Source: Trematomus loennbergii
Taxonomy: Eukaryota > Chordata > Actinopteri > Perciformes > Nototheniidae
Length of the DNA stretch: 64,000 nt
Direction of reading: 5' to 3'
Assembly: GCA_012861695.1 (NCBI GenBank)
Contig: JAAOOA010000002.1
Span: 19,767,803 to 19,831,802 of the forward strand
A program made the position numbers and the translations under genes. Below the pieces are notes generated by a model. The model searched no databases, had not been told where the DNA came from, and was given only the letters and a program-made list of their open reading frames with translations. Shown one piece after another: positions 7,371 to 42,186 of the stretch (the stretch's first letter is position 1; each line of letters starts with the position of its first letter).

Positions 7371-7461
7371 CCCTCTTAGGTGCCTTGCAAACAATGGACG
7401 TCCGCTCTCGGGAGCGTCGGAGTGGTGCGGTCACCCTAAGTGACAGACCTAAAGTATCCGG

Positions 7462-7830
7462 GATTCAGGCATCTTCCCTGGCTTGTACATTTTTGGTGAT
7501 GCGCCCTGGAGATATCAGCCTATTTTTAACAACTTTTCCCAGCTTTTCAAACATTTATTCCGGGGTTTTAGCCAGTCATTTTGCAAGAAATCATTTAACA
7601 TTAACGGTCTCCTGAAAAAGCACATATTCTGTGCATTTTCAGGAGAGCGTCTATGTTAAATAATTTCGTGCAAAATGACTGTCTAAAACTCTCTTCCAGA
7701 CATTTAAAAATACTTTCCCCGACCATTTAAACATTATTTCTGGGTGGTAAAGTGCAGTTAAGCGGCCTGGAGGTATTATACTATTTCAAACAACTTTTCC
7801 CCGCCTTTCAAAGACTTATTCCTGGGTACA
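7462..7830 (+). repeat. 5' subterminal repeats of copy 1 (forward orientation)
   Basis: Two diverged direct repeats lie here, one around 7462-7565 and one around 7735-7830. Each contains a version of GCGCCCTGGAGRTAT, CTATTT and ACTTTTCCC. The first starts with GATTCAGGCATCTTCCCTGG, whose reverse complement occurs at the 3' end near 19660. They are versions of the 80-bp unit that forms the array behind the gene, in opposite orientation. Confidence 0.65.
7566..7688. repeat. Long imperfect hairpin near the 5' end of copy 1
   Basis: Two arms of about 58 bases, starting TTTTAGCCAGTCATTTTGCA and ending with the near inverse TGCAAAATGACTGTCTAAAA, are separated by a few bases around TATTC. Mismatches are scattered. 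The structure is conserved in copies 2 (20085-20207) and 3 (41871-41992). Confidence 0.75.
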
Positions 7831-9440
7831 AGTGTTATCTTTCCCCCCCTGGGTGTGTGTGAGACAAGTGAAGTGAGTCAGCCTGCCAACAAGCAGCAGT
7901 GTGCTGTCATTTGAAACATGTTCCCCACACTGTGACTATGCTGTACCTGTTTCGAGCACTCTTTCCTGGGTCAATGTGTCCTCTTTCTCCCCCCTGGGTG
8001 TGTGTGAGACAAGTGAAGTGAGTCAGCCTGCCAACAAGCAGCAGTGTGCTGTCATTTGAAACATGTTCCCCACACTGTGACTATGCTTAGCCAGCTTTCG
8101 AGCACTCTTTCCTGGGTCAATGTGTCCTCTTTCTCCCCCCCCTGGGTGTGTGTGAGACAAGTGAAGTGAGTCAGCCTGCCAACAAGCAGCAGTGTGCTGT
8201 CATTTGAAACATGTTCCCCCACAGTTTAACACACTTTTACCTGTGTTTTGAGGCTTCTTTCCTGGGTCAATGTGTCCTCTTTCTCCCCCCTGGGTGTGTG
8301 TGAGACAAGTGAAGTGAGTCAGCCTGCCAACAAGCAGCAGTGTGCTGTCATTTGAAACATGTTCCTCCACACTGTGACTATGCTGTAGCCAGCTTTCGAG
8401 CACTCTTTCCTGGGTCAATGTGTCCTCTTTCTCCCCCCCTGGGTGTGTGTGAGACCAGTGAAGTGAGTCAGCCTGCCAACAAGCAGCAGTGTGCTGTCAT
8501 TTGAAACATGTTCCCCACTGTGACTATGCTTACCAGTTTCGAGCTCTTTCCTGGGTCAATGTGTCCTCTTTCTCCCCCCTGGGTGTGTGTGAGACCAGTG
8601 AAGTGAGTCAGCCTGCCAACAAGCAGCAGTGTGCTGTCATTTGAAACATGTTCCCCCACTTTACACAGTTTTACCTGTGTTTTGAGCTTTTTCCTGGGTC
8701 AATGTGTCCTCTTTCTCCCCCCTGGGTGTGTGTGTGAGACCAGTGAAGTGAGTCAGCCTGCCAACAAGCAGCAGTGTGCTGTCATTTGAAACATGTTCCC
8801 CACACTGTGACTATGCTGTAGCCAGCTTTCGAGCACTCTTTCCTGGGTCAATGTGTCCTCTTTCTCCCCCCCTGGGTGTGTGTGAGACCAGTGAAGTGAG
8901 TCAGCCTGCCAACAAGCAGCAGTGTGCTGTCATTTGAAACATGTTCCCCACAGTTTAACACAGTTTTACCTGTGTTTTGAGGCTTCTTTCCTGGGTCAAT
9001 GTGTCCTCTTTCTCCCCCCTGGGTGTGTGTGTGAGACATGAAGTGAGTCAGCCTGCCAACAAGCAGCAGTGTGCTGTCATTTGAAACATGTTCCTCCACA
9101 CTGTGACTATGCTGTAGCCAGCTTTCGAGCACTCTTTCCTGGGTAATGTGTCCTCTTTCTCCCCCCCCTGGGTGTGTGTGAGACCAGTGAAGTGAGTCAG
9201 CCTGCCAACAAGCAGCAGTGTGCTGTCATTTGAAACATGTTCCCCCACACTTTAACACAGTTTTACCTGTGTTTTGAGGCTTCTTTCCTGGGTCAATGTG
9301 TCCTCTTTCTCCCCCCTGGGTGTGTGTGAGACCAGTGAAGTGAGTCAGCCTGCCAACAAGCAGCAGTGTGCTGTCATTTGAAACATATTCCTCCACACTG
9401 TGACTATGCTGTCCAGCTTTCGAGCACTCTTTCCTGGGTC
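7830..9440 (+). repeat. Tandem array A, about 148-bp units with TGAGTCAGC sites (copy 1)
   Basis: About 11 units are marked by GTGAGTCAGCCTGCCAACAA near 7874, 8016, 8166, 8317, 8462, 8604, 8748, 8895, 9044, 9189 and 9338. Unit length varies slightly through small indels in the C-run and near the ACTGTGACTATGCTG segment. The short minus-strand frames across the array are repeat artefacts. Confidence 0.9.
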
Positions 9441-10470
9441 GAAAAGACATGTGCTGTAACCTGGTTCTCTCCCAGTACTGGGTACTAGTCAATGCCACTA
9501 TCACCACCACATTTAAACCAGATGAAGTGGTAGTTATCCGGGGTGCTGCAGAGTCTTTTTCAGGCTCCTCTCCACAATTGTCCCCCTAAAATGATTTTAA
9601 AATCATTATTTTTGCATTTAAATGCATGTATTCTATCATTTATATGGTTCCCCAACACAATGCACATAGTCTGGAGCTCACTGGGGTCCTGCATATCATT
9701 TAATCAGGCGTTTTAACACTTTTTCCCATGAAAATGATTTTTAATCACTATCATGGGGCTATGAAAATAAAATTCCCGGTAATGCAGAGCACAAGTGCAC
9801 CTTTTACTATTTAAATGTATTTGTATTATATATATTTGGGCTAGAAAGGGGACCTCTCTGGGATTTAGTCAGTTTATGGAGCTTTGCCCACAAATCCTGG
9901 ATGATCCAGGCCGAATTTGGGTGCTCTTAGGCGGCCTGCCAGGCGTCCCCACCCGTGGAAAGCAAAAAAAAGTGAAGAAAACGCTTAATTATATCTTAAA
10001 ACAGAGTCATTTTCAGGCTCCTCTCCACAATTGTCCCCCTAAAATGATTTTAAATCATTATTTTTGCATTTGAATGCATTTATTCTATCATTTATATGGT
10101 TCCCCAACACAATGCACATAGTCTGGAGCTCACTGGGGTCCTGCATATAATTTAATCAGGCGTTTTAACACTTTTTCCCATGAAAATGATTTTTAATCAC
10201 TATCATGGGGCTATGAAAATAAAATTCCGGGTAATGCAGAGCACAAGTGCACCTTTTACTATTTAAATGTATTTGTATTATATATATTTGGGCTAGGTAG
10301 GGGACCTCTCTGGGTGATTTAGTCAGTTTATGGATTTTTTCCCACAAATCCTGGATGATCCAGGCCGAATTTGGGTGCTCATAGGCGGCCTGCCAGGCGC
10401 CCCCACCCGTGGAGCAAAAAAAAAAGTGAAGAAAACGCTTAATTATATCTTAAAATAATCAAAAATGAAG
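9441..10470 (+). repeat. Two-unit direct repeat of about 453 bp (copy 1)
   Basis: The block beginning GGCTCCTCTCCACAATTGTC at about 9562 recurs at about 10015. Both units contain the ATCATTTATATGG and AATTTGGGTGCTC segments and end in an A-run. Copy 3 has only one unit, so the duplication is variable within the family. No gene is seen. Confidence 0.85.
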
Positions 10471-10541
10471 TTTTGAAAAATTGTGAAATTTTTTCTAAGT
10501 GCCAACGGGAGTAGTGGCCAGGTGTTTGGCGCTTCGGGCCG

Positions 10542-10587
10542 ATTTTTCCCCTTCTCCGATGGTTGGTACAACGGAGAAGGGGAAAAA
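10542..10587. repeat. Perfect 16-bp inverted repeat (copy 1)
   Basis: TTTTTCCCCTTCTCCG and its exact reverse complement are separated by 13 bases. The same structure is present in copy 2 near 22179-22224 and in copy 3 near 40010-40055. Confidence 0.85.
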
Positions 10588-10899
10588 GTCCCTGGGCTTC
10601 ATTTCCACTTCTCTGTAAAAAGATTCATCCATGTTTTTCAGACTACCTTCCGCACGAAATCAGAAACCCAGTTTTTGGGTGGACTCAGAAAAAATACGGC
10701 TGTTGGAAATCATGGAAGAATGTATCCGCTCACCAAGCACTCTGAGTGGGCCTCATTTTGTGCCTCAAGACCCCCCAGCCTGGTTCTCCCAACACTTGGA
10801 GGAATGCGAGGGCACTTTTGCAGGTGACTCTACCCGATTATGAGGCTCTATTTTGGGGCTTATTTTTTACATTTTCCCGGTTCTCCAAATAGTTTAAGT

Positions 10900-12490
10900 G
10901 TGACATTTTGAGCCCTGGAGGAATGCGAGGGCACTTTCCCGGTGACTCTACCCGATTTTGAGGCACTATTTGGGGGTATAATTTTTACATTTTGACCCCT
11001 TTCCACGGTTTTCACCAAAGTTGAGTTGGATGATTTCCTCCATGGAGGAATGTCAGGGGAGTCCGCGGGGGACTCTTGCGGGGTCATGAGGCACTATTCT
11101 GGGGTACAATTTTTCCATTTTGACCCCTTTCCCCGGTTCTCACCAAAGTTGAGTTGGATGATTTCCTCCATGGAGGAATGTCAGGGGAGTCCGCGGGGGA
11201 CTCTTGCTGGGTCATGAGGCACTATTCTGGGGTACAATTTTTCCATTTTGACCCCTTTCCCCGGTTCTCACCAAAGTTGAGTTGGATGATTTCCTCCATG
11301 GAGGAATGTCAGGGGAGTCCGCGGGGGACTCTTGCTGGGTCATGAGGCACTATTCTGGGGTACAATTTTTCCATTTTGACCCCTTTCCCCGGTTCTCACC
11401 AAAGTTGAGTTGGATGATTTCCTCCATGGAGGAATGTCAGGGGAGTCCGCGGGGGACTCTTGCTGGGTCATGAGGCACTATTCTGGGGTACAATTTTTCC
11501 ATTTTGACCCCTTTCCCCGGTTCTCACCAAAGTTGAGTTGGATGATTTCCTCCATGGAGGAATGTCAGGGGAGTCCGCGGGGGACTCTTGCTGGGTCATG
11601 AGGCACTATTCTGGGGTACAATTTTTCCATTTTGACCCCTTTCCCCGGTTCTCACCAAAGTTGAGTTGGATGATTTCCTCCATGGAGGAATGTCAGGGGA
11701 GTCCGCGGGGGACTCTTGCTGGGTCATGAGGCACTATTCTGGGGTACAATTTTTCCATTTTGACCCCTTTCCCCGGTTCTCACCAAAGTTGAGTTGGATG
11801 ATTTCCTCCATGGAGGAATGTCAGGGGAGTCCGCGGGGGACTCTTGCTGGGTCATGAGGCACTATTCTGGGGTACAATTTTTCCATTTTGACCCCTTTCC
11901 CCGGTTCTCACCAAAGTTGAGTTGGATGATTTCCTCCATGGAGGAATGTCAGGGGAGTCCGCGGGGGACTCTTGCTGGGTCATGAGGCACTATTCTGGGG
12001 TACAATTTTTCCATTTTGACCCCTTTCCCCGGTTCTCACCAAAGTTGAGTTGGATGATTTCCTCCATGGAGAATGTCAGGGGAGTCCGCGGGGGACTCTT
12101 GCTGGGTCATGAGGCACTATTCTGGGGTACAATTTTTCCATTTTGACCCCTTTCCCCGGTTCTCACCAAAGTTGAGTTGGATGATTTCCTCCATGGAGGA
12201 ATGTCAGGGGAGTCCGCGGGGGACTCTTGCGGGTCATGAGGCACTATTCTGGGGTACAATTTTTCCATTTTGACCCCTTTCCCCGGTTCTCACCAAAGTT
12301 GAGTTGGATGATTTCCTCCATGGAGGAATGTCAGGGGAGTCCGCGGGGGACTCTTGCGGGTCATGAGGCACTATTCTGGGGTACAATTTTTCCATTTTGA
12401 CCCCTTTCCCCGGTTCTCACCAAAGTTGAGTTGGATGATTTCCTCCATGGAGGAATGTCAGGGGAGTCCGCGGGGGACTCTTGCGGGGTC
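10900..12490 (+). repeat. Tandem array B, 128-bp units (copy 1)
   Basis: There are about 12 units of 128 bp, with starts 11026, 11154, 11282 and so on to about 12432, preceded by two diverged units. Each holds the 16-bp palindrome TTCCTCCATGGAGGAA, the imperfect palindrome GAGTCCGCGGGGGACTC and the spacer ATTTTGACCCCTTTCCCCGG. Because 128 is not a multiple of three, the recurring 63-codon frames are not a protein repeat. Confidence 0.95.
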
Positions 12491-13140
12491 ATGAGGCACT
12501 ATTTTCGGACACTTTTTTCACATTTTCCCCCCTTTTGCCCGGTTCTTTTTATTTTTCTTTTTTTCCTGTTTTGGCCCGTTTGACCCGGTTCCTTCTCCCG
12601 GGGGCACTGCCCGGTCCCGGGTGCCCCCCCAGGGCTCTAGTACAGCCGTTTCACCCCGTACGTTGACGGATTTTGACCATTTTTGCTGCGTTCTCCTCCT
12701 CCTCTCCTCTCCTCTCCTCTCTCCTCTCACTGATCGAATGGCAAACGTGACCCGCCATCGGAGGGCCTCCGCCGGCTGTTGGAAATCATGGAAGAATGTA
12801 TCCGCTCACCAAGCACTCTGAGTGGGCCTCATTTTGTGCCTCAAGACCCCCCAGCCTGGTTCTCCCAACACTTGGAGGAATGCGAGGGCACTTTTGCAGG
12901 TGACTCTACCCGATTATGAGGCACTATTTGGGGGTATAATTTTTACATTTTGACCCCTTTCCCCGGTTTTCACCAAAGTTGAGTTGGATGATTTCCACCA
13001 TGGAGGAATGTCAGGGGAGTCCGCGGGGGACTCCTGCGGGGTCATGAGGCACTGTTTTGGGGTATATTTTTTACATTTTGACCCCTTTCCCCGGTTCTCA
13101 CCAAAGTTGAGTGTGATGATTGCTGAGTCATGATGCACTT
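12491..13140 (+). other. Inter-array region of copy 1
   Basis: This holds a GC-rich stretch with CCCGGGGGCACTGCCCGG near 12598, a CTCCT-type simple repeat near 12692-12726, then a copy of the 10697-10850 segment (TTGGAAATCATGGAAGAATG onward) and two diverged array-B units. I see no gene. Confidence 0.6.
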
Positions 13141-13142
13141 TT

Positions 13143-13710
13143 TTGGGGGTACCTCATTATCAACACGGACTAGAGATGTCTCGGAGATGGCTCGGACCCC
13201 ACACCCTGGTTCTATGTAACCCTGGAGGAATGTCACATGAGTCGACAGGGGACTGCTGCTGGCTAATGAAGGACTATTTTGGGGTACATTTCCCCCATTA
13301 TCAACACGGACTAGAGATGTCTCGGAGATGGCTCGGACCCCACACCCTGGTTCTATGTAACCCTGGAGGAATGTCACATGAGTCGACAGGGGACTGCTGC
13401 TGGCTAATGAAGGACTATTTTGGGGTACATTTCCCCCATTATCAACACGGACTAGAGATGTCTCGGAGATGGCTCGGACCCCACACCCTGGTTCTATGTA
13501 ACCCTGGAGGAATGTCACATGAGTCGACAGGGGACTGCTGCTGGCTAATGAAGGACTATTTTGGGGTACATTTCCCCCATTATCAACATGGACTAGAGAT
13601 GTCTCGGAGATGGCTCGGACCCCACACCCTGGTTCTATGTAACCCTGGAGGAATGTCACATGAGTCGACAGGGGACTGCTGCTGGCTAATGAAGCACTAT
13701 TTCTGGGTAC
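13143..13710 (+). repeat. Tandem array C, 141-bp units (copy 1)
   Basis: There are four units of 141 bp containing CCCTGGAGGAATGTCACATG, GAGTCGACAGGGGACTG and ATTATCAACACGGACTAG. The length is a multiple of three and the unit lacks stops in one frame on each strand, so long frames are open in both directions. Copy 2 has six units and copy 3 four. The GGAGGAATG core and the GGGGTA segment relate it to array B. Confidence 0.9.
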
Positions 13711-13745
13711 TTTTTTTTCATTTTCACCCAAATTTCCCTGGATGA

Positions 13746-14137
13746 AATATTTTTTAGTTTTTTTTTGTTTTTAGCCCAGTTTTGGCCACAGCGTTGCCTG
13801 GAGGATAGGACCGAGATATGACAGACTCTCTGGCCGCCTCACAAGTCACTATTGTCGGACACTTTCTTTGCTTTACCCCGGTTCTATCACTCTTTCCTCC
13901 TTTGACCATACAACCCGTTTCCTGCTGGGGTGGTGCCTGGTTCCGGGGTACCCCAAACCCTCTCATGGTCGGGGCACCATGTATGGATGCATCGGACCCA
14001 ATGTTGCCATCACCAGCCCCGCGTTGGTGCGGAAGTGGGACCATCTGACCCGGTGGTAACCCAATACTTCCCTTCGTCCATGCACCATGAATTGATGCAT
14101 CGGACCCAGTGTCGCAACCACCGCTCACGCTAACGCA
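13746..14137 (+). other. Region upstream of the recombinase gene, copy 1
   Basis: A T-rich run is followed by GC-rich sequence with two diverged repeats around GGATGCATCGGACCCAATG (about 13983) and TTGATGCATCGGACCCAGTG (about 14091). This region directly precedes the TATA box and may be the promoter-proximal part. Overlapping short frames on both strands look fortuitous. Confidence 0.4.
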
Positions 14138-14143
14138 TATAAA
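14138..14143 (+). promoter_or_regulatory. TATA box of the recombinase gene, copy 1
   Basis: TATAAA occurs 36 bases before the first in-frame ATG (14179) and 54 bases before the second (14197). With a start site 25-30 bases downstream, transcription would begin about 14165-14173, leaving a 5' leader of only about 6-30 bases. Confidence 0.5.
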
Positions 14144-14178
14144 CGGAGAACTATAACATCATTTTGATCAAATTCATT

Positions 14179-16938
14179 ATGTGTGTTTCAGTAAGGATGT
14201 CATCTGAATGCCCGGTGTGCAGACTCTTCTATCTGGCATTGAACAAACACCTTAAGCACAAGCATGCAGTGCGGAACTTGGAGGAGAGGGGAATCCTCCT
14301 GAAAATAGCCAGTGGAAGGATAAATGTTCGGACCAAACCCTGTCCCATCGCTGGGTGTTCGTACGCTGGGAAGAGACTGGACCGTCATGTAAAACATGAC
14401 CACCCTGAGTTGTCCCGACATGAGGCACAGCAGGTCATGGCAAGGCTGAAGCATAGTGTGGCACTGCAGTTGCTCCATGACCTCCGTGAGACTAACCCCA
14501 TCATTGGAATGGCTACATCATTGGATATAGACAATGAGGGGGAATACCCCGGGCACCCTCCACCCTTCTCCCCACATACCGAGTGTGACAACGAGGACTG
14601 CAGGCAGGTGATGCTGGAAAATGTGGCATTGAGGGCTCAGAAGGATGCCCTCAATGATGAGGTGAAGACCCTGCGCTCCAGGCTGAAAAAGGAGCTAAAA
14701 CCCAGGAAGCAGAGTGCTGCTGTTCTTGAGGAAGAGGACGAATGTATACGATTTAAGGGCCTGGCAATCCCAAGTACCTCCGGCATAAACACAGTAGCCT
14801 CAGGCAGCAATACCCCTGTGAAGACCCCGGTGAAGACTGTCATGCAGTCCCCAGTAACCTCCGGTAGCGGGACCCCTGTGAAGACCCCGGTGAAGACTGT
14901 CATGCATTCCCCAGTAACCTCCGGTAGCGGGACCCCTGTGAAGACCCCGGTGAAGACTGTCATGCATTCCCCAGTAACCTCCGGTAGCGGGACCCCTGTG
15001 AAGACCCCGGTGAAGACTGTCATGCATTCCCCAGTAACCTCCGGTAGCGGGACCCCTGTGAGGAGCCCGGTGAAGACTGTCATGCTTGCAGTAGCCTCCG
15101 GTGGGAAGACACCGGTAAAGAACCCTGTGAAGAGCCAAGTGAAGACTGTAATGCTTGCAGTAGCCTCCGGTGGAAAGAGACCGGTCAAGAACCCTGTGAA
15201 GAGCCCAGTGAAGACTGTCATATTACCAGTTTCCTCCGGTAGCGAGACGCCTGTGAAGACCCCGGTGGAAACTGTCATGTTTGCAGTAGCCTCCGGTAGC
15301 GAGACCCCTGTGAAGACCCCGGTGGAAACTGTCATGTTTGCAGTAGCCTCCGGTAGCGAGACCCCTGTGAAGACCCCGGTGGAAACTGTCATGTTTGCAG
15401 TAGCCTCCGGTAGCGAGACCCCTGTGAAGACCCCGGTGGAAACTGTCATGTTTGCAGTAGCCTCCGGTAGCGAGACCCCTGTATGCCGGAAGACCCGTGC
15501 CTCTAAGCTGGCTAATGACTTGCCCTCTCCCTCAAATTACTGGTCCACTGGGTGTGGACGGGGGAATACCATGCGTGAAATCACGTTGCCTAGAAGCATG
15601 GAGGCGTACCTTCAGACATACTTGGATCATTGTTTGGGTGTCGCTCCGACAGTAAAACAGAAAGACAATGTTGTGTCGAAGATCAGCCGGATAAAGAACT
15701 TCATAGTATACATGGCCCATGGTGTTAACCGCCTGTCAGACTGGCTGTTCCTAAGAAACATGAAGATGATCCGTGGCTGGAGCGAGTATATTGTAAAGCC
15801 GGGCCGGGCAGTCACAACATCAGAGTTCTTCCTGAAGAATGTGCACCAGTTCATGGGGTACATGTCTGAGTCAAAGCCCCGGGGGTGCAAGCTCACCCAG
15901 TCTGATATGACCCACATAATGAGAGAGGTGAAAGCCAACATGAAACACTTGAATAAGGCAGTCACTCTACATCAGTTTAAGGTGAAGAGGAACAAACTGG
16001 ATCGTCTGCCGAGCCAGGCGGAGCTTCTCGCCGCCATGGCGGCCGCTGAGAAGCGCATCCCGGAGCTCCTCGACCTGATGGCCGGCACGCCGACCTCAAC
16101 CACCCAGAAGCTTCTCTATGGCTATCTCACCCTCCATTGGAGCCTCCTGTATGGCCACCGTACGGGCGTGTACGCAAACATGAAAAACAGTGAGGTCTTA
16201 GAGGCAGCCATAAGGGGAACTGCTGAGGGCTACATCATCCATGTGCAGGATCACAAGACGGCCAAGACATATGGCGAAGCACAGCTGGCGCTTACAGTAG
16301 AGGAGTTTAGCTGGGTCATGCGGTGGATGGGGATTAAAAAGGTATTGCTGGGTCCTCAGAATGAATTCTTCCTTTTCACAAGGGGGAATCGGGCCTCCAA
16401 GAACCTGAACGCTCACTTGAAGAGGGCATGGGCTGATGCTGGGCTAGAAACAGCCGTCACCTTCACAATCCTGCGCACTGCCCTGGCTGACAATATCAAG
16501 CATCACCAAGATCCAGAAAGCCGGTCGATTCTCGCCAGGTTTATGTGTCACGACGTAACCACGGCGGACCGGTTCTACGCGAATGCGCCGGGAATAAAGG
16601 AGGCATTGAGAATCCGCTCCATGTTCAGGGCGTCATCAGATGCGGCAGCAGCTGCATCATCATCAGAAGGATGTCTACCGCTGTCAGATGGGGAGACCTC
16701 CGAAGAGGGCTGCTATAACAGCACTGCTCCATCATCTCCATCATCTCCATCATCTTCACCTGATGGGTCATTGGAGCGGCAGCAGCAGCGGAAGCGGAAG
16801 CGGGAGGGAAAGAGGCCAATGAAGTCGGGACCGGGGCTGGTTGACACTCCTGATGATGGGGCAGGGGCCGTGGACTCAACCTGTTTGCCCTGGTGCACCG
16901 TAAGAATTAGACGCCTTTGGTCCCCTGAATCCCGCTAA
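14179..16938 (+). CDS. Zinc-finger tyrosine recombinase, copy 1
   Basis: The ATG at 14179 gives 919 residues; a second in-frame ATG at 14197 (also purine at -3) is as likely given the TATA position. Residues 12-29 and 55-75 are C2H2-like fingers (CPVC..H....H; CPIAGC..H....H). About 143-175 looks like a coiled coil. About 205-435 is a run of 19-20 residue repeats with TPVKTPVK. From about 465 to 815 lies a domain with R661 (GHRTG), K693 (DHKTA), TILR ending at R766, H791 (MCHD) and Y800 (DRFY), the catalytic set of tyrosine recombinases. A basic RKRKR cluster near 871 is a likely nuclear signal. The protein is inferred to cut and join element ends. It is intronless and the sole gene of the element. 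Family recall suggests Crypton-like, unproved. Confidence 0.85.
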   Translation: MCVSVRMSSECPVCRLFYLALNKHLKHKHAVRNLEERGILLKIASGRINVRTKPCPIAGCSYAGKRLDRHVKHDHPELSRHEAQQVMARLKHSVALQLLHDLRETNPIIGMATSLDIDNEGEYPGHPPPFSPHTECDNEDCRQVMLENVALRAQKDALNDEVKTLRSRLKKELKPRKQSAAVLEEEDECIRFKGLAIPSTSGINTVASGSNTPVKTPVKTVMQSPVTSGSGTPVKTPVKTVMHSPVTSGSGTPVKTPVKTVMHSPVTSGSGTPVKTPVKTVMHSPVTSGSGTPVRSPVKTVMLAVASGGKTPVKNPVKSQVKTVMLAVASGGKRPVKNPVKSPVKTVILPVSSGSETPVKTPVETVMFAVASGSETPVKTPVETVMFAVASGSETPVKTPVETVMFAVASGSETPVKTPVETVMFAVASGSETPVCRKTRASKLANDLPSPSNYWSTGCGRGNTMREITLPRSMEAYLQTYLDHCLGVAPTVKQKDNVVSKISRIKNFIVYMAHGVNRLSDWLFLRNMKMIRGWSEYIVKPGRAVTTSEFFLKNVHQFMGYMSESKPRGCKLTQSDMTHIMREVKANMKHLNKAVTLHQFKVKRNKLDRLPSQAELLAAMAAAEKRIPELLDLMAGTPTSTTQKLLYGYLTLHWSLLYGHRTGVYANMKNSEVLEAAIRGTAEGYIIHVQDHKTAKTYGEAQLALTVEEFSWVMRWMGIKKVLLGPQNEFFLFTRGNRASKNLNAHLKRAWADAGLETAVTFTILRTALADNIKHHQDPESRSILARFMCHDVTTADRFYANAPGIKEALRIRSMFRASSDAAAAASSSEGCLPLSDGETSEEGCYNSTAPSSPSSPSSSPDGSLERQQQRKRKREGKRPMKSGPGLVDTPDDGAGAVDSTCLPWCTVRIRRLWSPESR

Positions 16939-16944
16939 ACATAT

Positions 16945-17395
16945 GGGCATACATTTTGTTAATAGTGCAACACCTCCAGGGCGCATAACTGCAGTTTACA
17001 AGCCAGGGAAGGTGCCAGAATCCTGGGCATACATTTTGTTAATAGTGCAACACCTCCAGGGCGCATAACTGCAGTTTACAAGCCAGGGAAGGTGCCAGAA
17101 TCCTGGGCATACATTTTGTTAATAGTGCAACACCTCCAGGGCGCATAACTGCAGTTTACAAGCCAGGGAAGGTGCCAGAATCCTGGGCATACATTTTGTT
17201 AATAGTGCAACACCTCCAGGGCGCATAACTGCAGTTTACAAGCCAGGGAAGGTGCCAGAATCCTGGGCATACATTTTGTTAATAGTGCAACACCTCCAGG
17301 GCGCATAACTGCAGTTTACAAGCCAGGGAAGGTGCCAGAATCCTGGGCATACATTTTGTTAATAGTGCAACACCTCCAGGGCGCATAACTGCACT
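16945..17395 (+). repeat. Tandem array D, 80-bp units behind the gene (copy 1)
   Basis: Exactly 80-bp units start at 16945, 17025, 17105, 17185, 17265 and 17345 with GGGCATACATTTTGTTAATA, the last one partial. Each contains TACAAGCCAGGGAAGGTGCC and CCTCCAGGGCGCATAACTGC. The array starts 6 bases after the stop codon, so it would form the 3' untranslated region. Copy 2 has 3-4 units and copy 3 about four. Confidence 0.95.
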
Positions 17396-17548
17396 TTAAA
17401 ACGTAGGTTAAGAAATTTAGTAGTACTGTTATAGCAGCAGTAGTACGTGTAAATAGTTGATGTTTTAGTCTGTGTGTACTGTCATGTTTGTTACTGTAAA
17501 TAGTTGATGTTTTAGGGTGTGTGGTTGATGTTTTAGGGTGTGTGTTCA

Positions 17549-17554
17549 AATAAA
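17549..17554 (+). promoter_or_regulatory. Candidate polyadenylation signal, copy 1
   Basis: AATAAA lies about 610 bp after the stop codon, after array D and a TGATGTTTTAG repeat, and is followed by an A-rich stretch. The same signal is kept in copy 2 (28799-28804) and copy 3 (34435-34440, minus). Confidence 0.5.
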
Positions 17555-17699
17555 ATTAAAAATTAAAAAAAAACAATAACCTTGATGGTTACCAGGGGCA
17601 GATAAAGTGCCACTTTCCATCAGCACCGGGGTGCTGAACCCTGTGATGAGCGCTCAAGTGTTGGCGGAGGAGGTGTAAGCCAGAGGAGGGTGAACAAAA

Positions 17700-18060
17700 G
17701 TTAAAGTGTTTGAACCTCCAGCCCAGAAGGGGGGTGGTGGTGCCGTGAAGAAGGCCGACTATGGATGCTGATGGGCGGACATAGAAGCACCACAAAATCC
17801 ACCCCCTTTAGGGTCACCAGGGGCACGAGAATACCCTCAACAGAAGGGGTGGTGGTGCCGTGAAGAAGGCCGACTATGGATGCTGATGGGCGGACATAGA
17901 AGCACCACAAAATCCACCCCCTTTAGGGTCACCAGGGGCACGAGAATACCCTCAACAGAAGGGGTGGTGGTGACGTGAAGAAGGCCGACTATGGATGCTG
18001 ATGGGCGGACATAGAAGCACCACAAAATCCACCCCCTTTAGGGTCACCAGGGGCACGAGG
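17700..18060 (+). repeat. Tandem array E, about 115-bp units (copy 1)
   Basis: There are three units around GGGGTGGTGGTGCCGTGAAG, GACATAGAAGCACCACAAAA and TTTAGGGTCACCAGGGGCAC. Three units are also present in copies 2 and 3. Confidence 0.9.
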
Positions 18061-18139
18061 TTCTGGTGGGTGTGAATACCTGTGTTTAGTCCGTGGGGGA
18101 GTGCTTAAGTCTGGGGGCCCGGGGACTCAGGGTGTGCAA

Positions 18140-18760
18140 GGTTATGGAGGTCCCACTGTTATGGGGACATGCTGGAGGTCATGAGTCCGTCCTTCGGGGC
18201 TCTGTGAGCGGGCAAAAAGAGGTGATTTTCCCCTGGTCTCTGCTGGAGCTGTGAAATGCACAGAGTCCCACTGTTAGGGAGTCATCCTGGAGGTCTCTAG
18301 CCCGTCTTTCGGTGCTCTGTGAGCGGGCAGAGAGAGGTGATTTTCCCCTGGTCTCTGCTGGAGCTGTGAAATGCACAGAGTCCCACTGTTAGGGAGTCAT
18401 CCTGGAGGTCTCTAGCCCGTCTTTCGGTGCTCTGTGAGCGGGCAGAGAGAGGTGATTTTCCCCTGGTCTCTGCTGGAGCTGTGAAATGCACAGAGTCCCA
18501 CTGTTAGGGAGTCATCCTGGAGGTCTTTAGTCCGTCTTTCGGTGCTCTGTGAGCGGGCAGAGAGAGGTGATTTTCCCCTGGTCTCTGCTGGAGCTGTGAA
18601 ATGCACAGAGTCCCACTGTTAGGGATCCATCCTGGAGGTCATGAGTCCGTACTTTGGGGGTCTGTGAGCGGGCACAGACAGGTGATTTTCCCCTGGTCTC
18701 TCCTGGAGCTGTGAAATAACCAGAGTCCCACTGTTAGGGACTTCTGCTGGAGGTCTCCTG
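18140..18760 (+). repeat. Tandem array F, about 115-bp units (copy 1)
   Basis: About five units contain CACTGTTAGGGAGTCATCCT, TGTGAGCGGGCAGAGAGAGG and CTGGTCTCTGCTGGAGCTGT. Diverged units recur at about 19140-19385. Confidence 0.9.
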
Positions 18761-19560
18761 CATTTAAACAGATTCACCAGTTTCTAACAAGACTTTAGCC
18801 CCGATCAGAGCCCTGTTTTCTGGGTAAGACAGCGAGGTGCTGTACCCTGGGTGTCTGGCTCTCTGAGACCCTGCTAAAAGCAGTGTCTCTGCTGCCTGCA
18901 TTTAAACAGATTCACCAGTTTCTAACAAGACTTTAGCCCCGATCAGAGCCCTGTTTTCTCAAATCGTATTTTCAGAATCTGACCCTCTGCCGTAACTCCG
19001 CTCCCCGAGGTCCTAGAGATTCGCCGATGGTACCGTTGGATGCGGGGTACGTGTAAATGGGGGGGTAGAGAAAAAGCCTGAACCGAACAGAGCTTGTTAT
19101 CAAAAGTTATGGATTAGTAGCAATATTTCACAATGGAGCTCTCCAGGGTGCTGGAGGTAATTAGTCCGTCTTTCGGTGCTCTTTGAGCGGGCAGAGAGAG
19201 GTGATTTTCACGGTCTCCGCCCTGGAGGTCTGAAATACAGTCCCACTGTTAGGAGGCCATGCTGGAGGTCATGAGTCCGTACTTTGGGGGTCTGTGAGCG
19301 GGCACAGACAGGTGATTTTCCCCTGGTCTCTCCTGGAGCTGTGAAATAACCAGAGACCCACTGTTAGGGACTTCTGCTGGAGGTCTCCTGCATTTAAACA
19401 GATTCACCAGTTTCTAACATTACTTTAGCCCTGATCAGTGCCCTGTTTTCTGGGTAAGACAGCGAGGTGCTGTACCCTGGGTGTCTGGCTCTCTGAGACC
19501 CCGCTAAAAGCAGTGTCTCTGCTGCCTGCATTTAAACAGATTCACCAGTTTCTAACAAGA
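18761..19560 (+). repeat. Array G (about 138-bp units) with intervening single-copy block (copy 1)
   Basis: Units around CATTTAAACAGATTCACCAG and GGGTAAGACAGCGAGGTGCT occur at about 18760-18960 and again at 19388-19560. Between them is a block (about 18960-19140) with GATTCGCCGATGGTACCGTT that occurs once per intact copy, then array-F-like units. Copy 2 has more units before the block. Confidence 0.85.
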
Positions 19561-19884
19561 CTTTACAACTGCAGTTTACAAGCCAGGGAAGGGGCCAGAA
19601 TCCTGGGTATACATTTTGTAAATAGTGCAATACCTCCAAGGCGCATAACTGCAGTTTACAAGCCAGGGAAGATGCCTGAATCCTGGGGTAAACATTGTTT
19701 AATTGTTTAAGTGTTTTTAAATGTATGGAACAGTGTTTTGTCTCTTTCAAAACTCTCCCGTCATTGGCCGGATACATGGGGACGATTTTATATTGACTAT
19801 GACCGTTACTATTCCAGTGAGACGAAGTACGTCCAGTGACGGGAGTGATCCCATGTTAATTTTGTCCGAAAACCAGAGCATTCC
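19561..19884 (+). repeat. 3' subterminal region of copy 1
   Basis: This holds two more 80-bp-type units (about 19565-19690), the second reading TACAAGCCAGGGAAGATGCC then TGAATCC, the reverse complement of the 5' subterminal sequence at 7462. A 200-bp unique tail follows and ends GAGCATTCC just before the core. ACGTCCAGTGACGGGAG at 19829-19845 matches ACGTCC-N5-CGGGAG at 7398-7414. Confidence 0.75.
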
Positions 19885-19889
19885 CTTAT
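19885..19889 (+). other. Shared core CTTAT between copies 1 and 2
   Basis: A single CTTAT separates the 3' end of copy 1 (GAGCATTCC) from the 5' start of copy 2 (CCCTCTTAGG). Around it, ACCAGAG (19872-19878) and CTCTTAGGT (19892-19900) form an imperfect inverted repeat, as expected of a joined-end recombination site. Confidence 0.65.
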
Positions 19890-20084
19890 CCCTCTTAGGT
19901 GCCTTGCAAACAATGGACGTCCGCTCTCGGGAGCGTCGGAGTGGTGCGGTCACCCTAAGTGACAGACCTAAAGTATCCGGGATTCAGGCATCTTCCCTGG
20001 CTTGTACATTTTTGGTGATGCGCCCTGGAGATATCAGCCTATTTTTAACAACTTTTCCCAGCTTTTCAAACATTTATTCCGGGG

Positions 20085-20207
20085 TTTTAGCCAGTCATTT
20101 TGCAAGAAATCATTTAACATTAACGGTCTCCTGAAAAAGCACATATTCTGTGCATTTTCAGGAGAGCGTCTATGTTAAATAATTTCGTGCAAAATGACTG
20201 TCTAAAA
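20085..20207. repeat. Long imperfect hairpin near the 5' end of copy 2
   Basis: Same structure as at 7566-7688, offset by exactly 12519 bases and apparently identical. Confidence 0.75.
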
Positions 20208-29310: not shown

Positions 29311-29389
29311 TTCTGGTGGGTGTGAATACCTGTGTTTAGTCCGTGGGGGAGTGCTTAAGTGGGGGCCCGGGGACTCAGGGTGTGCAAGG

Positions 29390-29870
29390 TTATGGAGGTC
29401 CCACTGTTATGGGGACATGCTGGAGGTCATGAGTCCGTCCTTCGGGGCTCTGTGAGCGGGCAAAAAGAGGTGATTTTCCCCTGGTCTCTGCTGGAGCTGT
29501 GAAATGCACAGAGTCCCACTGTTAGGGAGTCATCCTGGAGGTCTCTAGCCCGTCTTTCGGTGCTCTGTGAGCGGGCAGAGAGAGGTGATTTTCCCCTGGT
29601 CTCTGCTGGAGCTGTGAAATGCACAGAGTCCCACTGTTAGGGAGTCATCCTGGAGGTCTTAGTCCGTCTTTCGGTGCTCTGTGAGCGGGCAGAGAGAGGT
29701 GATTTTCCCCTGGTCTCTGCTGGAGCTGTGAAATGCACAGAGTCCCACTGTTAGGGAGTCATCCTGGAGGTCTTTAGTCCGTCTTTCGGTGCTCTGTGAG
29801 CGGGCAGAGAGAGGTGATTTTCCCCTGGTCTCTGCTGGAGCTGTGAAATGCACAGAGTCCCACTGTTAGG
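29390..29870 (+). repeat. Array F of copy 2
   Basis: About four 115-bp units, then diverged units near 30545-30780. Confidence 0.9.
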
Positions 29871-29879
29871 GACTTCTGC

Positions 29880-30960
29880 TGGAGGTCCTGCATTTAAACA
29901 GAGTCACCAGTTTCTAACAAGACTTTAGCCCCGATCAGAGCCCTGTTTTCTGGGTAAGACAGCGAGGTGCTGTAACCTGGGTGTCTGGCTCTCTGAGACC
30001 CTGCTAAAAGCAGTGTCTCTGCTGCCTGCATTTAAACAGATTCACCAGTTTCTAACAAGACTTTAGCCCCGATCAGAGCCCTGTTTTCTGGGTAAGACAG
30101 CGAGGTGCTGTACCCTGGGTGTCTGGCTCTCTGAGACCCTGCTAAAAGCAGTGTTCTGCTGCTGCATTTAAACAGATTCACCAGTTTCTAACAAGACTTT
30201 AGCCCCGATCAGAGCCCTGTTTTCTGGGTAAGACAGCGAGGTGCTGTACCCTGGGTGTCTGGCTCTCTGAGACCCTGCTAAAAGCGTGTCTCTGCTGCCT
30301 GCATTTAAACAGATTCACCAGTTTCTAACAAGACTTTAGCCCCGATCAGAGCCCTGTTTTCTCAAATCGTATTTTCAGAATCTGACCCTCTGCCGTAACT
30401 CCGCTCCCCGAGGTCCTAGAGATTCGCCGATGGTACCGTTGGATGCGGGGTACGTGTAAATGGGGGGGTAGAGAAAAAGCCTGAACCGAACAGAGCTTGT
30501 TATCAAAAGTTATGGATTAGTAGCAATATTTCACAATGGAGCTCTCCAGGTGCTGAGGTAATTAGTCCGTCTTTCGGTGCTCTTTGAGCGGGCAGAGAGA
30601 GTGATTTTCACGGTCTCCGCCCTGGAGGTCTGAATACAGTCCCACTGTTAGGAGGCCATGCTGGAGGTCATGAGTCCGTACTTTGGGGGTCTGTGAGCGT
30701 GCACAGACAGGTGATTTTCCCCTGGTCTCTCCTGGAGCTGTGAAATAACCAGAGACCCACTGTTAGGGACTTCTGCTGGAGTCTCCTGCATTTAAACAGA
30801 TTCACCAGTTTATAACATTACTTTAGCCCTGATCAGTGCCCTGTTTTCTGGGTAAGACAGCGAGGTGCTGTACCCTGGGTTGTCTGGCTCTCTGAGACCC
30901 CGCTAAAAGCAGTGTCTCTGCTGCCTGCATTTAAACAGATTCACCAGTTTCTAACAAGAC
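29880..30960 (+). repeat. Array G and single-copy block of copy 2
   Basis: About four 138-bp units with CATTTAAACAGATTCACCAG precede the GATTCGCCGATGGTACCGTT block (about 30420), followed by F-like units and one more G unit. Copy 1 has roughly two G units in the same place. Confidence 0.85.
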
Positions 30961-31279
30961 TTTACAACTGCAGTTTACAGCCAGGGAAGGGGCCAGAATC
31001 TGGGTATCATTTTGTAAATAGTGCAAACCTCCAAGGCGCATAACTGCAGTTTACAAGCCAGGGAAGATGCCTGAATCCTGGGGTAAACATTGTTTAATTG
31101 TTTAAGTGTTTTAAATGTATGGAACAGTGTTTTGTCTCTTTCAAAACTCTCCCCGTCATTGGCCGGATACATGGGGACGATTTTATATTGACTATGACCG
31201 TTACTATTCCAGTGAGACGAAGGTACGTCCAGTGACGGGAGTGATCCCATGTTAATTTTGTCCGAAAACCAGAGCATTC
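30961..31279 (+). repeat. 3' subterminal region of copy 2
   Basis: It matches 19561-19884 with several single-base gaps, including one C fewer directly before the core. The minus-strand frames here are fortuitous. Confidence 0.75.
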
Positions 31280-31284
31280 CTTAT
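31280..31284 (+). other. Right core CTTAT of copy 2
   Basis: CTTAT marks the right edge of the tandem pair. Beyond it the sequence (CTAAGCACTTCCCC) is unlike the element. Joined to the left flank it would give an uninterrupted ...GACTCTTATCTAAGC... site. Confidence 0.6.
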
Positions 31285-32203
31285 CTAAGCACTTCCCCAA
31301 TATCCCCAACTTGTAATATGTATTGTATTTCCCACCGTGACTAAGAACACTGAGAACGCTGCTGACAACTCTAAATTTTTTAGTATATCAATCACAGATT
31401 TTGATAATCAAAACAGGTGTCTGCTCACCTTTTGTATATTGCCATGGTCTTAGTTGTCACCAGTATCTCTGTGTCCCCCCCTGGACTGGATTCTGTCCCC
31501 TGGCTATCGGTGTTCCTTTCTAGAGATCAGCTCACAAACGTCGGGAAAGTCACTACTTGTTGGGATAGAACACCTCTGCTACGCGCCGTTCGTTGGATGA
31601 GGCTGAAATCTCTATTAAAATAAGAAAGGAATTGAAAACACTGGAATCAAAGTTATAACAAATTATCTGAGTTTACTTCTAGTAGGAAACCAAACACATA
31701 TACAAGTTATACAGAGTACTCGAGTACCCCGGACTTTTAGGTCTGTGATGCGATGCCGATAAATGCGTCCGGACCAACCAACTCATCAAACCAAAAAGAA
31801 ATTGGACTTCAGGTCTGTGATGCGATGCGGATACAGATATCAGGACCAACCAACTCACCAAACCCAAAAGCATTTTTACACACACAAACATCAGTATTTG
31901 TATCTACTTTTGGGGCGGAGATTGGTCATCTCTTCCTTCCCATTTTTCTCCAAGTGAATCAGAGAACCCCTGGGGAGGAGCTGTTTAAACTGACCACCTC
32001 CCCCAAGTGCCCTGATTGGCTGGATTCGCTTCTGGCCGGGTTCAATCAGAGGTCTGCCCAGAGAGTGAGATCCCAAGCCACACTAGGTCAAAAGTCAACG
32101 TTTATCTTCACCCTATCTCCACCACATTCTCTTCCCATGCTCTTCTTCACCTATTTTACGATGTCTTAAACGACTTAGTGACCGCATCTGGCTCTTAGTG
32201 GTG
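31285..32203. other. Spacer between copies 2 and 3, origin unknown
   Basis: The 0.9 kb is unrelated to the element. On the minus strand it has promoter-like features: AGCCAATCAG (CCAAT type) near 32025, a TACAAATAC segment near 31900, and a tandem duplication of about 66 bp at 31740-31870 (GATGCGATGC repeats). An ATG near 31445 opens a short frame that runs into AAAAGGTGAGC, which fits a splice donor consensus. I could not connect these into a gene, and the block does not resemble the LTR at 2951. It could be the far part of the retroviral remnant or unrelated DNA. Confidence 0.3.
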
Positions 32204-32208
32204 ATAAG
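32204..32208 (-). other. 3' core of copy 3 (CTTAT, minus strand)
   Basis: Read on the minus strand, the 3' end of copy 3 (GAGCATTCC) is followed by CTTAT and then CACCAC, the same core as in the other copies. Confidence 0.6.
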
Positions 32209-35015: not shown

Positions 35016-37869
35016 TTAGCGGGATTCAGGGGACCAAAGGCGTCTAATTCTTACGGTGCACCAGGGCAAACAGGTTGAGTCCACGGCCCCTGCCCCATCA
35101 TCAGGAGTGTCAACCAGCCCCGGTCCCGACTTCATTGGCCTCTTTCCCTCCCGCTTCCGCTTCCGCTGCTGCTGCCGCTCCAATGACCCATCAGGTGAAG
35201 ATGATGGAGCAGTACTGTTATAGCAGCCCTCTTCGGAGGTCTCCCCATCTGACAGCGGTAGACATCCTTCTGATGATGATGCAGCTGCTGCCGCATCTGA
35301 TGACGCCCTGAACATGGAGCGGATTCTCAATGCCTCCTTTATTCCCGGCGCATTCGCGTAGAACCGGTCCGCCGTGGTTACGTCGTGACACATAACCTGG
35401 CGAGAATCGACCGGCTTTCTGGATCTTGGTGATGCTTGATATTGTCAGCCAGGGCAGTGCGCAGGATTGTGAAGGTGACGGCTGTTTCTAGCCCAGCATC
35501 AGCCCATGCCCTCTTCAAGTGAGCGTTCAGGTTCTTGGAGGCCCGATTCCCCCTTGTGAAAAGGAAGAATTCATTCTGAGGACCCAGCAATACCTTTTTA
35601 ATCCCCATCCACCGCATGACCCAGCTAAACTCCTCTACTGTAAGCGCCAGCTGTGCTTCGCCATATGTCTTGGCCGTCTTGTGATCCTGCACATGGATGA
35701 TGTAGCCCTCAGCAGTTCCCCTTATGGCTGCCTCTAAGACCTCACTGTTTTTCATGTTTGCGTACACGCCCGTACGGTGGCCATACAGGAGGCTCCAATG
35801 GAGGGTGAGATAGCCATAGAGAAGCTTCTGGGTGGTTGAGGTCGGCGTGCCGGCCATCAGGTCGAGGAGCTCCGGGATGCGCTTCTCAGCGGCCGCCATG
35901 GCGGCGAGAAGCTCCGCCTGGCTCGGCAGACGATCCAGTTTGTTCCTCTTCACCTTAAACTGATGTAGAGTGACTGCCTTATTCAAGTGTTTCATGTTGG
36001 CTTTCACCTCTCTCATTATGTGGGTCATATCAGACTGGGTGAGCTTGCACCCCCGGGGCTTTGACTCAGACATGTACCCCATGAACTGGTGCACATTCTT
36101 CAGGAAGAACTCTGATGTTGTGACTGCCCGGCCCGGCTTTACAATATACTCGCTCCAGCCACGGATCATCTTCATGTTTCTTAGGAACAGCCAGTCTGAC
36201 AGGCGGTTAACACCATGGGCCATGTATACTATGAAGTTCTTTATCCGGCTGATCTTCGACACAACATTGTCTTTCTGTTTTACTGTCGGAGCGACACCCA
36301 AACAATGATCCAAGTATGTCTGAAGGTACGCCTCCATGCTTCTAGGCAACGTGATTTCACGCATGGTATTCCCCGTCCACACCCAGTGGACCAGTAATTT
36401 GAGGGAGAGGGCAAGTCATTAGCCAGCTTAGAGGCACGGGTCTTCCGGCATACAGGGGTCTCGCTACCGGAGGCTACTGCAAACATGACAGTTTCCACCG
36501 GGGTCTTCACAGGGGTCTCGCTACCGGAGGCTACTGCAAACATGACAGTTTCCACCGGGGTCTTCACAGGGGTCTCGCTACCGGAGGCTACTGCAAACAT
36601 GACAGTTTCCACCGGGGTCTTCACAGGGGTCTCGCTACCGGAGGCTACTGCAAACATGACAGTTTCCACCGGGGTCTTCACAGGGGTCTCGCTACCGGAG
36701 GCTACTGCAAACATGACAGTTTCCACCGGGGTCTTCACAGGGGTCTCGCTACCGGAGGCTACTGCAAACATGACAGTTTCCACCGGGGTCTTCACAGGCG
36801 TCTCGCTACCGGAGGAAACTGGTAATATGACAGTCTTCACTGGGCTCTTCACAGGGTTCTTGACCGGTCTCTTTCCACCGGAGGCTACTGCAAGCATTAC
36901 AGTCTTCACTTGGCTCTTCACAGGGTTCTTTACCGGTGTCTTCCCACCGGAGGCTACTGCAAGCATGACAGTCTTCACCGGGCTCCTCACAGGGGTCCCG
37001 CTACCGGAGGTTACTGGGGAATGCATGACAGTCTTCACCGGGGTCTTCACAGGGGTCCCGCTACCGGAGGTTACTGGGGAATGCATGACAGTCTTCACCG
37101 GGGTCTTCACAGGGGTCCCGCTACCGGAGGTTACTGGGGAATGCATGACAGTCTTCACCGGGGTCTTCACAGGGGTCCCGCTACCGGAGGTTACTGGGGA
37201 CTGCATGACAGTCTTCACCGGGGTCTTCACAGGGGTATTGCTGCCTGAGGCTACTGTGTTTATGCCGGAGGTACTTGGGATTGCCAGGCCCTTAAATCGT
37301 ATACATTCGTCCTCTTCCTCAAGAACAGCAGCACTCTGCTTCCTGGGTTTTAGCTCCTTTTTCAGCCTGGAGCGCAGGGTCTTCACCTCATCATTGAGGG
37401 CATCCTTCTGAGCCCTCAATGCCACATTTTCCAGCATCACCTGCCTGCAGTCCTCGTTGTCACACTCGGTATGTGGGGAGAAGGGTGGAGGGTGCCCGGG
37501 GTATTCCCCCTCATTGTCTATATCCAATGATGTAGCCATTCCAATGATGGGGTTAGTCTCACGGAGGTCATGGAGCAACTGCAGTGCCACACTATGCTTC
37601 AGCCTTGCCATGACCTGCTGTGCCTCATGTCGGGACAACTCAGGGTGGTCATGTTTTACATGACGGTCCAGTCTCTTCCCAGCGTACGAACACCCAGCGA
37701 TGGGACAGGGTTTGGTCCGAACATTTATCCTTCCACTGGCTATTTTCAGGAGGATTCCCCTCTCCTCCAAGTTCCGCACTGCATGCTTGTGCTTAAGGTG
37801 TTTGTTCAATGCCAGATAGAAGAGTCTGCACACCGGGCATTCAGATGACATCCTTACTGAAACACACAT
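35016..37869 (-). pseudogene. Zinc-finger tyrosine recombinase, copy 3 (two frameshifts)
   Basis: This is the mirror copy of the recombinase gene, with the start ATG at 37869-37867 and the stop at 35016. Two single-base losses break it, one in a run of five G reduced to four (about 36370) and one in a run of three T reduced to two (about 35394). The first falls just before the recombinase domain and the second between R766 and H791, so no full catalytic domain can be made. The repeat segment has two more 57-bp units than copies 1 and 2 (six VETVM repeats against four), and the serine-rich tail lost 18 bp. Both frameshifts are in homopolymers, so sequencing error should be excluded before calling it dead. 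Confidence 0.8.
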
Positions 37870-40710: not shown

Positions 40711-40719
40711 AAAGATGCT

Positions 40720-41720
40720 CGAAACGTGGCTACAGCATAGTCACACTGTGGGGTAACATGTTTCAAATGACAGCACACTGCTGCTTGTTGGCAGGCTGAC
40801 TCACTTCACTTGTCTCACACACACCCAGGGGGGGAGAAAGAGGACACATTGACCCAGGAAAGAGTCCTCAAAACACAGTAAAAGTGTGTTAAACTGTGGG
40901 GGAACATGTTTCAAATGACAGCACACTGCTGCTTGTTGGCAGCTGACTCACTTCACTTGTCTCACACACACCCAGGGGGGGAGAAAGAGGACACATTGAC
41001 CCAGGAAAGAGTGCTCGAAAGGTGGCTACAGCATAGTCACAGTGTGGGGTAACATGTTTCAAATGACAGCACACTGCTGCTTGTTGGCAGGCTGACTCAC
41101 TTCACTTGTCTCACACACACCCAGGGGGGGAGAAGAGGACACATTGACCCAGGAAAGAGTGCTCGAAAGGTGGCTACAGCATAGTCCAGTGTGGGGTAAC
41201 ATGTTTCAAATGACACACTGCTGCTTGTTGGCAGGCTGACTCACTCACTTGTCTCACACACACCCAGGGGGGGATAAAGAGGACACATTGACCCAGGAAA
41301 GAGTGCTCGAAAGGTGGCTACAGCATAGCACAGTGTGGGGTAACATGTTTCAATGACAGCACAACTGCTGCTTGTTGGCAGCTGACTCACTTCACTTGTC
41401 TCACACACACCCAGGGGGGGGAGAAAGAGGACACATTGACCCAGGAAAGAGTGCTCGAAAGGTGGCTACAGCATAGTCACAGTGTGGGGTAACATGTTTC
41501 AAATGACAGCACACTGCTGCTTGTTGCAGGCTGACTCACTTCACTTGTCTCACACACCCAGGGGGGGAGAAAGAGGACACATTGACCCAGGAAGAGTGCT
41601 CGAAAGGTGGCTACAGCATAGTCACAGTGTGGGGGTAACATGTTTCAAATGACAGCACACTGCTGCTTGTTGGCAGGCTGACTCACTTCACTTGTCTCAC
41701 ACACACCCAGGGGGGGAAAG
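40720..41720 (-). repeat. Array A of copy 3
   Basis: About seven units with GCTGACTCACTTCACTTG (plus strand) at about 40795, 40942, 41090, 41235, 41383, 41529 and 41680. Several units have one-base gaps. Confidence 0.9.
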
Positions 41721-41870
41721 ATAACACTTGTACCCAGGAATAAGTCTTTGAAAGGCGGGGAAAAGTTGTTTGAAATAGTATAATACCTCCAGGCCGCTTA
41801 ACTGCACTTTACCACCCAGAAATAATGTTTAAATGGTCGGGGAAAGTATTTTTAAATGTCTGGAAGAGAG

Positions 41871-41992
41871 TTTTAGACAGTCATTTTGCACGAAATTATT
41901 TAACATAGACGCTCTCCTGAAAATGCACAGAATATGTGCTTTTTCAGGAGACCGTTAATGTTAAATGATTCTTGCAAAATGACTGGCTAAAA
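41871..41992. repeat. Long imperfect hairpin near the 5' end of copy 3
   Basis: Reverse complement of the hairpin at 7566-7688, with a single-base loss in one arm. Confidence 0.75.
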
Positions 41993-42186
41993 CCCCGGAA
42001 TAAATGTTTGAAAAGCTGGGAAAAGTTGTTAAAAATAGGCTGATATCTCCAGGGCGCATCACCAAAAATGTACAAGCCAGGGAAGATGCCTGAATCCCGG
42101 ATACTTAGGTCTGTCACTTAGGGTGACCGCACCACTCCGACGCTCCCGAGAGCGGACGTCCATTGTTTGTAAGGCACCTAAGAGGG

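Follow-up and report, generated by a model that had tools for sequence, protein, structure and literature searches.

The 64,000-nucleotide stretch of the Trematomus loennbergii genome analysed here (GCA_012861695.1, contig JAAOOA010000002.1, positions 19,767,803-19,831,802, forward strand; hereafter the window) holds three copies of an element that joins a gene for a predicted zinc-finger tyrosine recombinase to a body of tandem arrays (Table 1). The element is a dispersed mobile DNA family in the host genome, with copies of about 10-12.5 kb each. It is very probably a transposon family, likely carried as a circle and inserted by the predicted recombinase at CTTNTC-like sites. The original prediction, made from the letters of the window, had described three copies with common ends, one 919-residue open reading frame (ORF) and the same order of arrays, and self-comparison together with the array and ORF listings bears this out. 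The restriction of the family to these three copies has to be abandoned, as identical ends and recombinase genes recur genome-wide.

The copies align end to end, with 99.93% identity between copies 1 and 2 in the 4,087 bp surrounding the gene. The element has a G+C content of 0.50, compared with 0.41-0.44 in the flanks examined. Its left terminus reads CTTATC/CCTCTTAGGTGCC (CTTTTC in copy 3) and its right terminus AACCAGAGCATTCC(C)TTATC; the common ends had been recognised correctly, but the true ends lie five bases further out, at the CTTATC core. Similarly, the predicted lack of terminal inverted repeats holds for the very tips, where none was found, but not for the subterminal regions, where an inverted pair occurs, some 90 bases in from the left end and some 205 bases in from the right end. 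The identity of its two arms is 81% over 69 bp for copies 1 and 3, and 96.7% over 30 bp for copy 2. The pair has words in common with the units of the 80-bp array, so that an accessory binding site is a natural role to propose for it. Neither an Rfam nor a tRNA scan of the window gave a match.

The host assembly (1.21 Gb, 3,566 contigs) was searched with the left end (445 bp), the right end (211 bp) and the 401-residue recombinase core, which returned 1,454, 944 and 1,491 first-look candidates, respectively. The loci scored were the best candidates of these longer lists and included the window's own copies, so that the identity figures are biased upward and older copies are under-represented. 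Within this scope, 40 of 40 left ends and 103 of 103 recombinase cores (both sets including copies 1 and 2, the cores all free of stops) were identical to the window, as were 40 of 40 right ends. The scored loci are spread over many contigs, and their flanks differ, starting exactly at the element ends. By these counts the gene is present in at least about a hundred copies, with the first-look numbers as the upper bound if every candidate is real, and the family, dispersed and with identical recombinase genes, is recent.

Target sites and junctions

At nine of 30 left-end loci the right end of an element stands directly before the left end, and at nine of 30 right-end loci a left end follows directly. 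The remaining 21 left flanks fall into 16 groups, which are not fully independent. Five loci (L013, L017, L020, L036 and L038) lie inside other element copies or their relatives, four of them at the internal inverted repeat, which has been entered from either side. Another five have host repeat X in common with the flank of copy 1, and L019 lies in an 81% relative of X. Repeat X (window positions 5871-7371) is a high-copy sequence of which one base has been used repeatedly by the element. The five X flanks diverge by 3-8% over about 1.3-1.5 kb while the element ends are identical (L035 is 99.7% identical to the flank of copy 1), which indicates at least four separate insertions at a single base of X.

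Empty counterparts were read for several of these targets. Among 38 matches to repeat X, 19 were read, 18 of them empty (CTTATC CTTA GGGG, two with CTA) and one filled. The left target of copy 3 was empty in all three paralogues read out of four (CTTTTC CTGT), while its right target, read in ten of 34 cases, was empty in nine (CTTATC ACCA) and carried an element right end in one. For the right target of copy 2 a single paralogue was read, and it lacks the element (CTTCTC TAAG). C108 carries a left end (L033) and, 11.6 kb away in the same orientation, a right end (L041), with only the ends read. The joined flanks of this insertion match 12 other loci continuously (bases 1-223 of 261, 95-96%), and the six of these that were read are all uninterrupted, CTACTCCCTCTGATATTC. 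C173 has a left and a right junction at the same base as the C108 insertion, about 100 kb apart. The exon hit on C108 and C173, which we take to be that of a calcineurin-B-like gene, exists in at least a dozen paralogous copies (on C108, C943, C836, C153, C1157, C644, C174, C1304 and C173); the next exon to the right of the insertion was searched for and not found. The empty sites demonstrate the mobility of the element. The host genome offers what had been proposed as the mark of a mobile family, a large number of copies whose ends agree and whose arrays vary; the flanks also differ between copies, and empty targets occur in addition.

The origin of the bases at each junction can be followed when the core is numbered starting at the first base of CTTATC. 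At the left junction the target supplies positions 1-5; position 4 is the most variable, and T occupies positions 2 and 5 in all 16 flank groups, while positions 6-10 are fixed by selection because the query started at position 6. At the right junction, positions 1-6 (CTTATC) belong to the element; of the 40 best right-end candidates scored for a query without the core, 39 were also among the 40 obtained with CTTATC (the fortieth was not read). Right positions 7-10 come from either partner. Within X, L045 keeps the CTTA of the target and L056 has the CCTC of the element; similarly, L055, in a relative of the internal inverted repeat, keeps the target bases and L052, in the repeat itself, has those of the element. 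CCTC occurs in six of 21 right flanks; since the target of L041 reads CCTC as well, this flank is uninformative. Filled and empty sites compared show only the common core, and a target-site duplication, which would be expected of a DDE transposase, was not seen. The junctions fit the crossover of a tyrosine recombinase: a staggered exchange with the overlap within positions 5-10, in which mismatches are resolved to either strand, would give the observed mixture of bases.

The element has inserted precisely and repeatedly into sites that also exist empty, its ends are identical, its copies can lie head to tail over one core, and it nests in its own internal inverted repeat. We infer that it is excised as a circle, as copies joined head to tail through one core and junctions with half a target are the expected products of such a form. 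The encoded recombinase would then catalyse crossover at a CTTNTC-like target through a staggered cut spanning at most 6 bp (positions 5-10), and its zinc fingers may bind the inverted subterminal units.

The predicted recombinase and the tandem arrays

The protein consists of two C2H2-like zinc fingers and a repeat linker, followed by the predicted recombinase. ORF lengths among the genomic copies recur at 912, 931 and other values, and the step from 912 to 931 corresponds to 19 residues, or one linker unit. In our motif assignment R661, K693, R766, H791 and Y800 are invariant in all eight sequences compared, and the R-H-R-Y tetrad is incomplete, with Thr763 standing in for the box-II His in every one of them. 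The predicted model has the catalytic fold of tyrosine recombinases and matches XerA, Cre and topoisomerase IB, with the Tn1549 integrase also among the matches. The conserved catalytic positions and the fold comparison back the earlier assignment to the tyrosine recombinases, a family to which the match by sequence alone is weak. Searches of Pfam, NCBIfam and PDB sequences with the protein pointed to no clear family; its named relatives are fish, with notothenioid, turbot and rainbowfish among them, and neither scans of IMG/VR using the protein profile and the patterns of the two ends nor scans of GTDB contigs returned anything. A search of the host genome for the phage-integrase family (PF00589) gave ten short, near-equally scoring matches, possibly from other recombinase elements; the eight that were fetched (L001-L008) have no similarity to the element protein at E 0.001.

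The absence of a second gene, also predicted, agrees with the domain scans. Eleven other open frames of at least 110 residues overlap copy 1; ten were scanned against Pfam without yielding a convincing domain, seven having no match at E 0.01 and three being translations of the 141-bp and 57-bp repeats. The translated 141-bp repeat (13134-13745, + strand) matched the MLV integrase C-terminal domain at E 7e-8, above the curated cut-off, although no single stretch passes; we take the Pfam matches of translated repeats to be chance hits on repetitive sequence.

In all three copies the arrays follow the order 148, 453-454, 128, 141, 57 (coding), 80, 115 and 115 bp, with varying unit numbers; the 454-bp repeat, for instance, is present as a single unit and not two in copy 3. 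Rows of Tandem Repeats Finder (TRF) cover 49.5, 54.0 and 51.5% of copies 1, 2 and 3, respectively, compared with 565 of 30,091 bases (1.9%) outside the copies. The arrays would ride along as the body of the element while their unit numbers change. Two further copies were read. The one on C28 retains both ends and the arrays, including 39 matches to the second 115-bp unit, but lacks about 2.8 kb relative to copy 1, with most of the gene; that a copy without the gene has kept its two ends suggests mobilisation in trans. The copy on C6 has an internal duplication, and the stretch examined stopped short of its right end.

Table 1. Features of the three element copies in the window (positions within the 64,000-nucleotide stretch)
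Feature	Positions	Strand	Basis
Copy 1, core to core	7366-19890	+	self-comparison, end reading
Copy 2, head to tail with copy 1, one core in common	19885-31285	+	self-comparison, end reading
Copy 3, opposite strand	42191-32203	-	self-comparison, end reading
Left core of copy 1, CTTATC; same core in empty sites of host repeat X	7366-7371	+	
Single CTTATC core joining copy 1 (its right end) to copy 2 (its left end)	19885-19890	+	
Right core of copy 2, CTTATC; CTTCTC in the empty paralogue read	31280-31285	+	
Right core of copy 3, CTTATC	32203-32208	-	
Left core of copy 3, CTTTTC, identical in its empty target	42186-42191	-	
Left subterminal repeat, related to the inverted 80-bp-array unit	7458-7525	+	
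Right subterminal repeat, in inverse orientation to its left counterpart	19620-19686	-	
148-bp tandem array, copy 1	7819-9440	+	
Two units of the 453-454-bp repeat, copy 1	9549-10455	+	
Internal inverted repeat, two 16-bp arms; target of other copies in both orientations	10543-10587	.	
128-bp tandem array, copy 1	10959-12546	+	
141-bp tandem array, copy 1	13155-13714	+	
919-codon zinc-finger/tyrosine-recombinase gene (predicted), copy 1	14179-16938	+	ORF, motif, fold
57-bp in-frame repeat, coding for the variable linker repeats (about 19 residues) of the protein	14792-15482	+	
80-bp tandem array directly past the stop codon, copy 1	16944-17398	+	
First 115-bp tandem array, copy 1	17731-18059	+	
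Second 115-bp tandem array, copy 1	18150-18757	+	
919-codon gene, copy 2	25589-28348	+	ORF
Gene in copy 3, frameshifted, two overlapping open frames	35378-37869	-	ORF

The surroundings of the copies contain further repeated sequences. The 917-bp segment between copies 2 and 3 (31286-32202) resembles flanks found elsewhere and has a target site at each end. A 5 kb block is duplicated at 97.8% (46224-51200 and 57999-62954), and its first copy contains an open frame with similarity to class C receptors (7tm_3, Pfam E 6e-63), which may belong to an olfactory receptor cluster. A possible DIRS-like retroelement lies at 52008-53280, where a 98-bp tandem repeat accompanies an open frame whose match to reverse transcriptase is weak (E 1.3e-4, below the cut-off). 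An open frame at 4-765 resembles the endonuclease of a long interspersed nuclear element by eye, with no Pfam match at E 0.001.

Alternative explanations and relation to known elements

The window copies are not three simple insertions, as their outer flanks stem from different target sites. Copy 1 is bordered by X on its left side, copy 2 by a different target on its right, and the two sides of copy 3 come from two more targets, unrelated to each other. Neither joined flank pair is spanned by any of the 40 scored loci, and the missing target halves of the copy 1 and 2 pair were both looked for in the window and neither is there. Unrelated outer flanks without a spanning locus indicate that the window copies were rearranged after insertion, which weighs against a simple-insertion history; later recombination between copies is the likely source of the mixed flanks. 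Whether the element's recombinase, rather than homologous recombination, could have joined the ends of different copies and so deleted or inverted the DNA between them bears on this point. Exactly one core lies between copies 1 and 2, and every junction in the window is the exact half of an intact target, which favours such an activity; ordinary recombination among many identical copies also predicts mixed flanks, however, and with one cluster examined we regard an active part of the recombinase as less likely than not. The clustering of the copies, two in tandem and the third nearby and inverted, together with the likewise duplicated (98%) and unrelated receptor block, could also speak for segmental duplication of one locus with a recombinase relic and satellites, the copies never having transposed. 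Yet copies occur on many contigs, and their flanks, which are not the same, start precisely where the element stops; flanks at the same target differ by 3-8% next to identical ends. The existence of empty targets is decisive, and segmental duplication, rejected on this ground, retains hardly any probability.

A DDE-type or rolling-circle transposon or a retroelement might instead be the carrier, with the recombinase gene as its passenger. Large DNA transposons of other classes do exist in fish, the recombinase-family sequence match is weak, and the integrase-like match of the translated 141-bp repeat is of the retroviral type. Such a carrier is nevertheless highly improbable: no target duplication was generated, target and element bases are mixed across a short overlap, no inverted repeat was found at the tips, and the ten other frames of copy 1 that were scanned contain no other convincing domain. 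A further view is that the element is a true Crypton, for instance of a divergent fish lineage, merely bloated. A recombinase as the sole recognised gene, ends marked by a direct repeat of 6 bp, the lack of terminal inverted repeats and the gene-less copy all fit what PMC3212892 describes, and the same paper reports over 2,700 Crypton copies in medaka. The large size, the arrays and the box-II Thr speak against it, as does the lack of any match to a Crypton-derived Pfam domain at E up to 1 (the library content for DUF3504 being unverified); we put this assignment at somewhat less than an even chance.

The preferred reading, a tyrosine-recombinase transposon, can be set beside several known systems. 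Cryptons, among them CryptonA of medaka and other animals, encode a recombinase, lack terminal inverted repeats and are proposed to move through a circle, and their copy number is very low in most hosts, according to PMC3212892; since the autonomous and non-autonomous copies in medaka exceed 2,700, amplification alone does not set the fish element apart. The same paper gives direct repeats of 4-6 bp for fungal and oomycete or diatom Cryptons (4 or 6 bp in fungi, 5 or 6 bp in CryptonS) and found none in animal Cryptons, whereas here each end has a CTTATC core, of which the left one varies with the target. Repbase lists a CryptonV group. The fish element resembles Cryptons, as described in PMC3212892, in its sole tyrosine-recombinase gene (ten of the 11 other frames of copy 1 having been scanned), the lack of inverted or long direct repeats at the tips (the inverted pair being subterminal), the short direct repeat as recombination substrate, the non-autonomous copies and the amplification in a fish. 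It differs in its length of 10-12.5 kb, about half of it arrays of eight unit types, in the C2H2-like fingers and repeat linker before the recombinase and in the box-II Thr. Animal Cryptons measure a few kb. In its mode of action the element resembles a Crypton, with its size, satellite body and box-II change setting it apart, and it is a candidate member of that group.

Starships are defined by a DUF3435-type captain gene with cargo. The fish protein gave no DUF3435-type match at E up to 1 in the Pfam scan (the library content for DUF3435 being unverified). Starships are likewise large eukaryotic elements mobilised by a tyrosine recombinase, but they are fungal and carry cargo genes, whereas copy 1 has no recognised cargo gene and a satellite-like body. 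Integrative elements such as Tn916 and Tn1549 form a circle, use degenerate targets and leave flank cores of mixed origin; they are bacterial and carry further genes for excision and transfer, which were not recognised in the fish element. DIRS and Ngaro elements also bring a tyrosine recombinase into vertebrate mobile DNA, according to PMC3212892 and PMC7599744, but no reverse transcriptase was recognised in copy 1. No description of the element was found in literature titles and abstract openings, subscription papers, Repbase and Dfam being outside this scope.

Vertebrate tyrosine-recombinase DNA transposons are represented, in the literature consulted (PMC3212892 and PMC5753468), mainly by copies in medaka and salmon, fragments and domesticated genes. 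The exact empty sites, readable crossover junctions and identical genes of the T. loennbergii family make the mechanism directly testable. The family is a route by which several satellite families may travel together through the genome, and its rearranged flanks hint at one origin of structural change within the receptor-gene region. A bolder and rather doubtful extension is that the element is the vertebrate counterpart of an integrating plasmid, in which the arrays are working parts for the circle and the recombinase joins the ends of different copies. If so, the arrays would serve as binding, replication or segregation sequences, the 80-bp unit being an arm site of the recombinase, and one mobile family would spread satellite DNA while recutting chromosomes.

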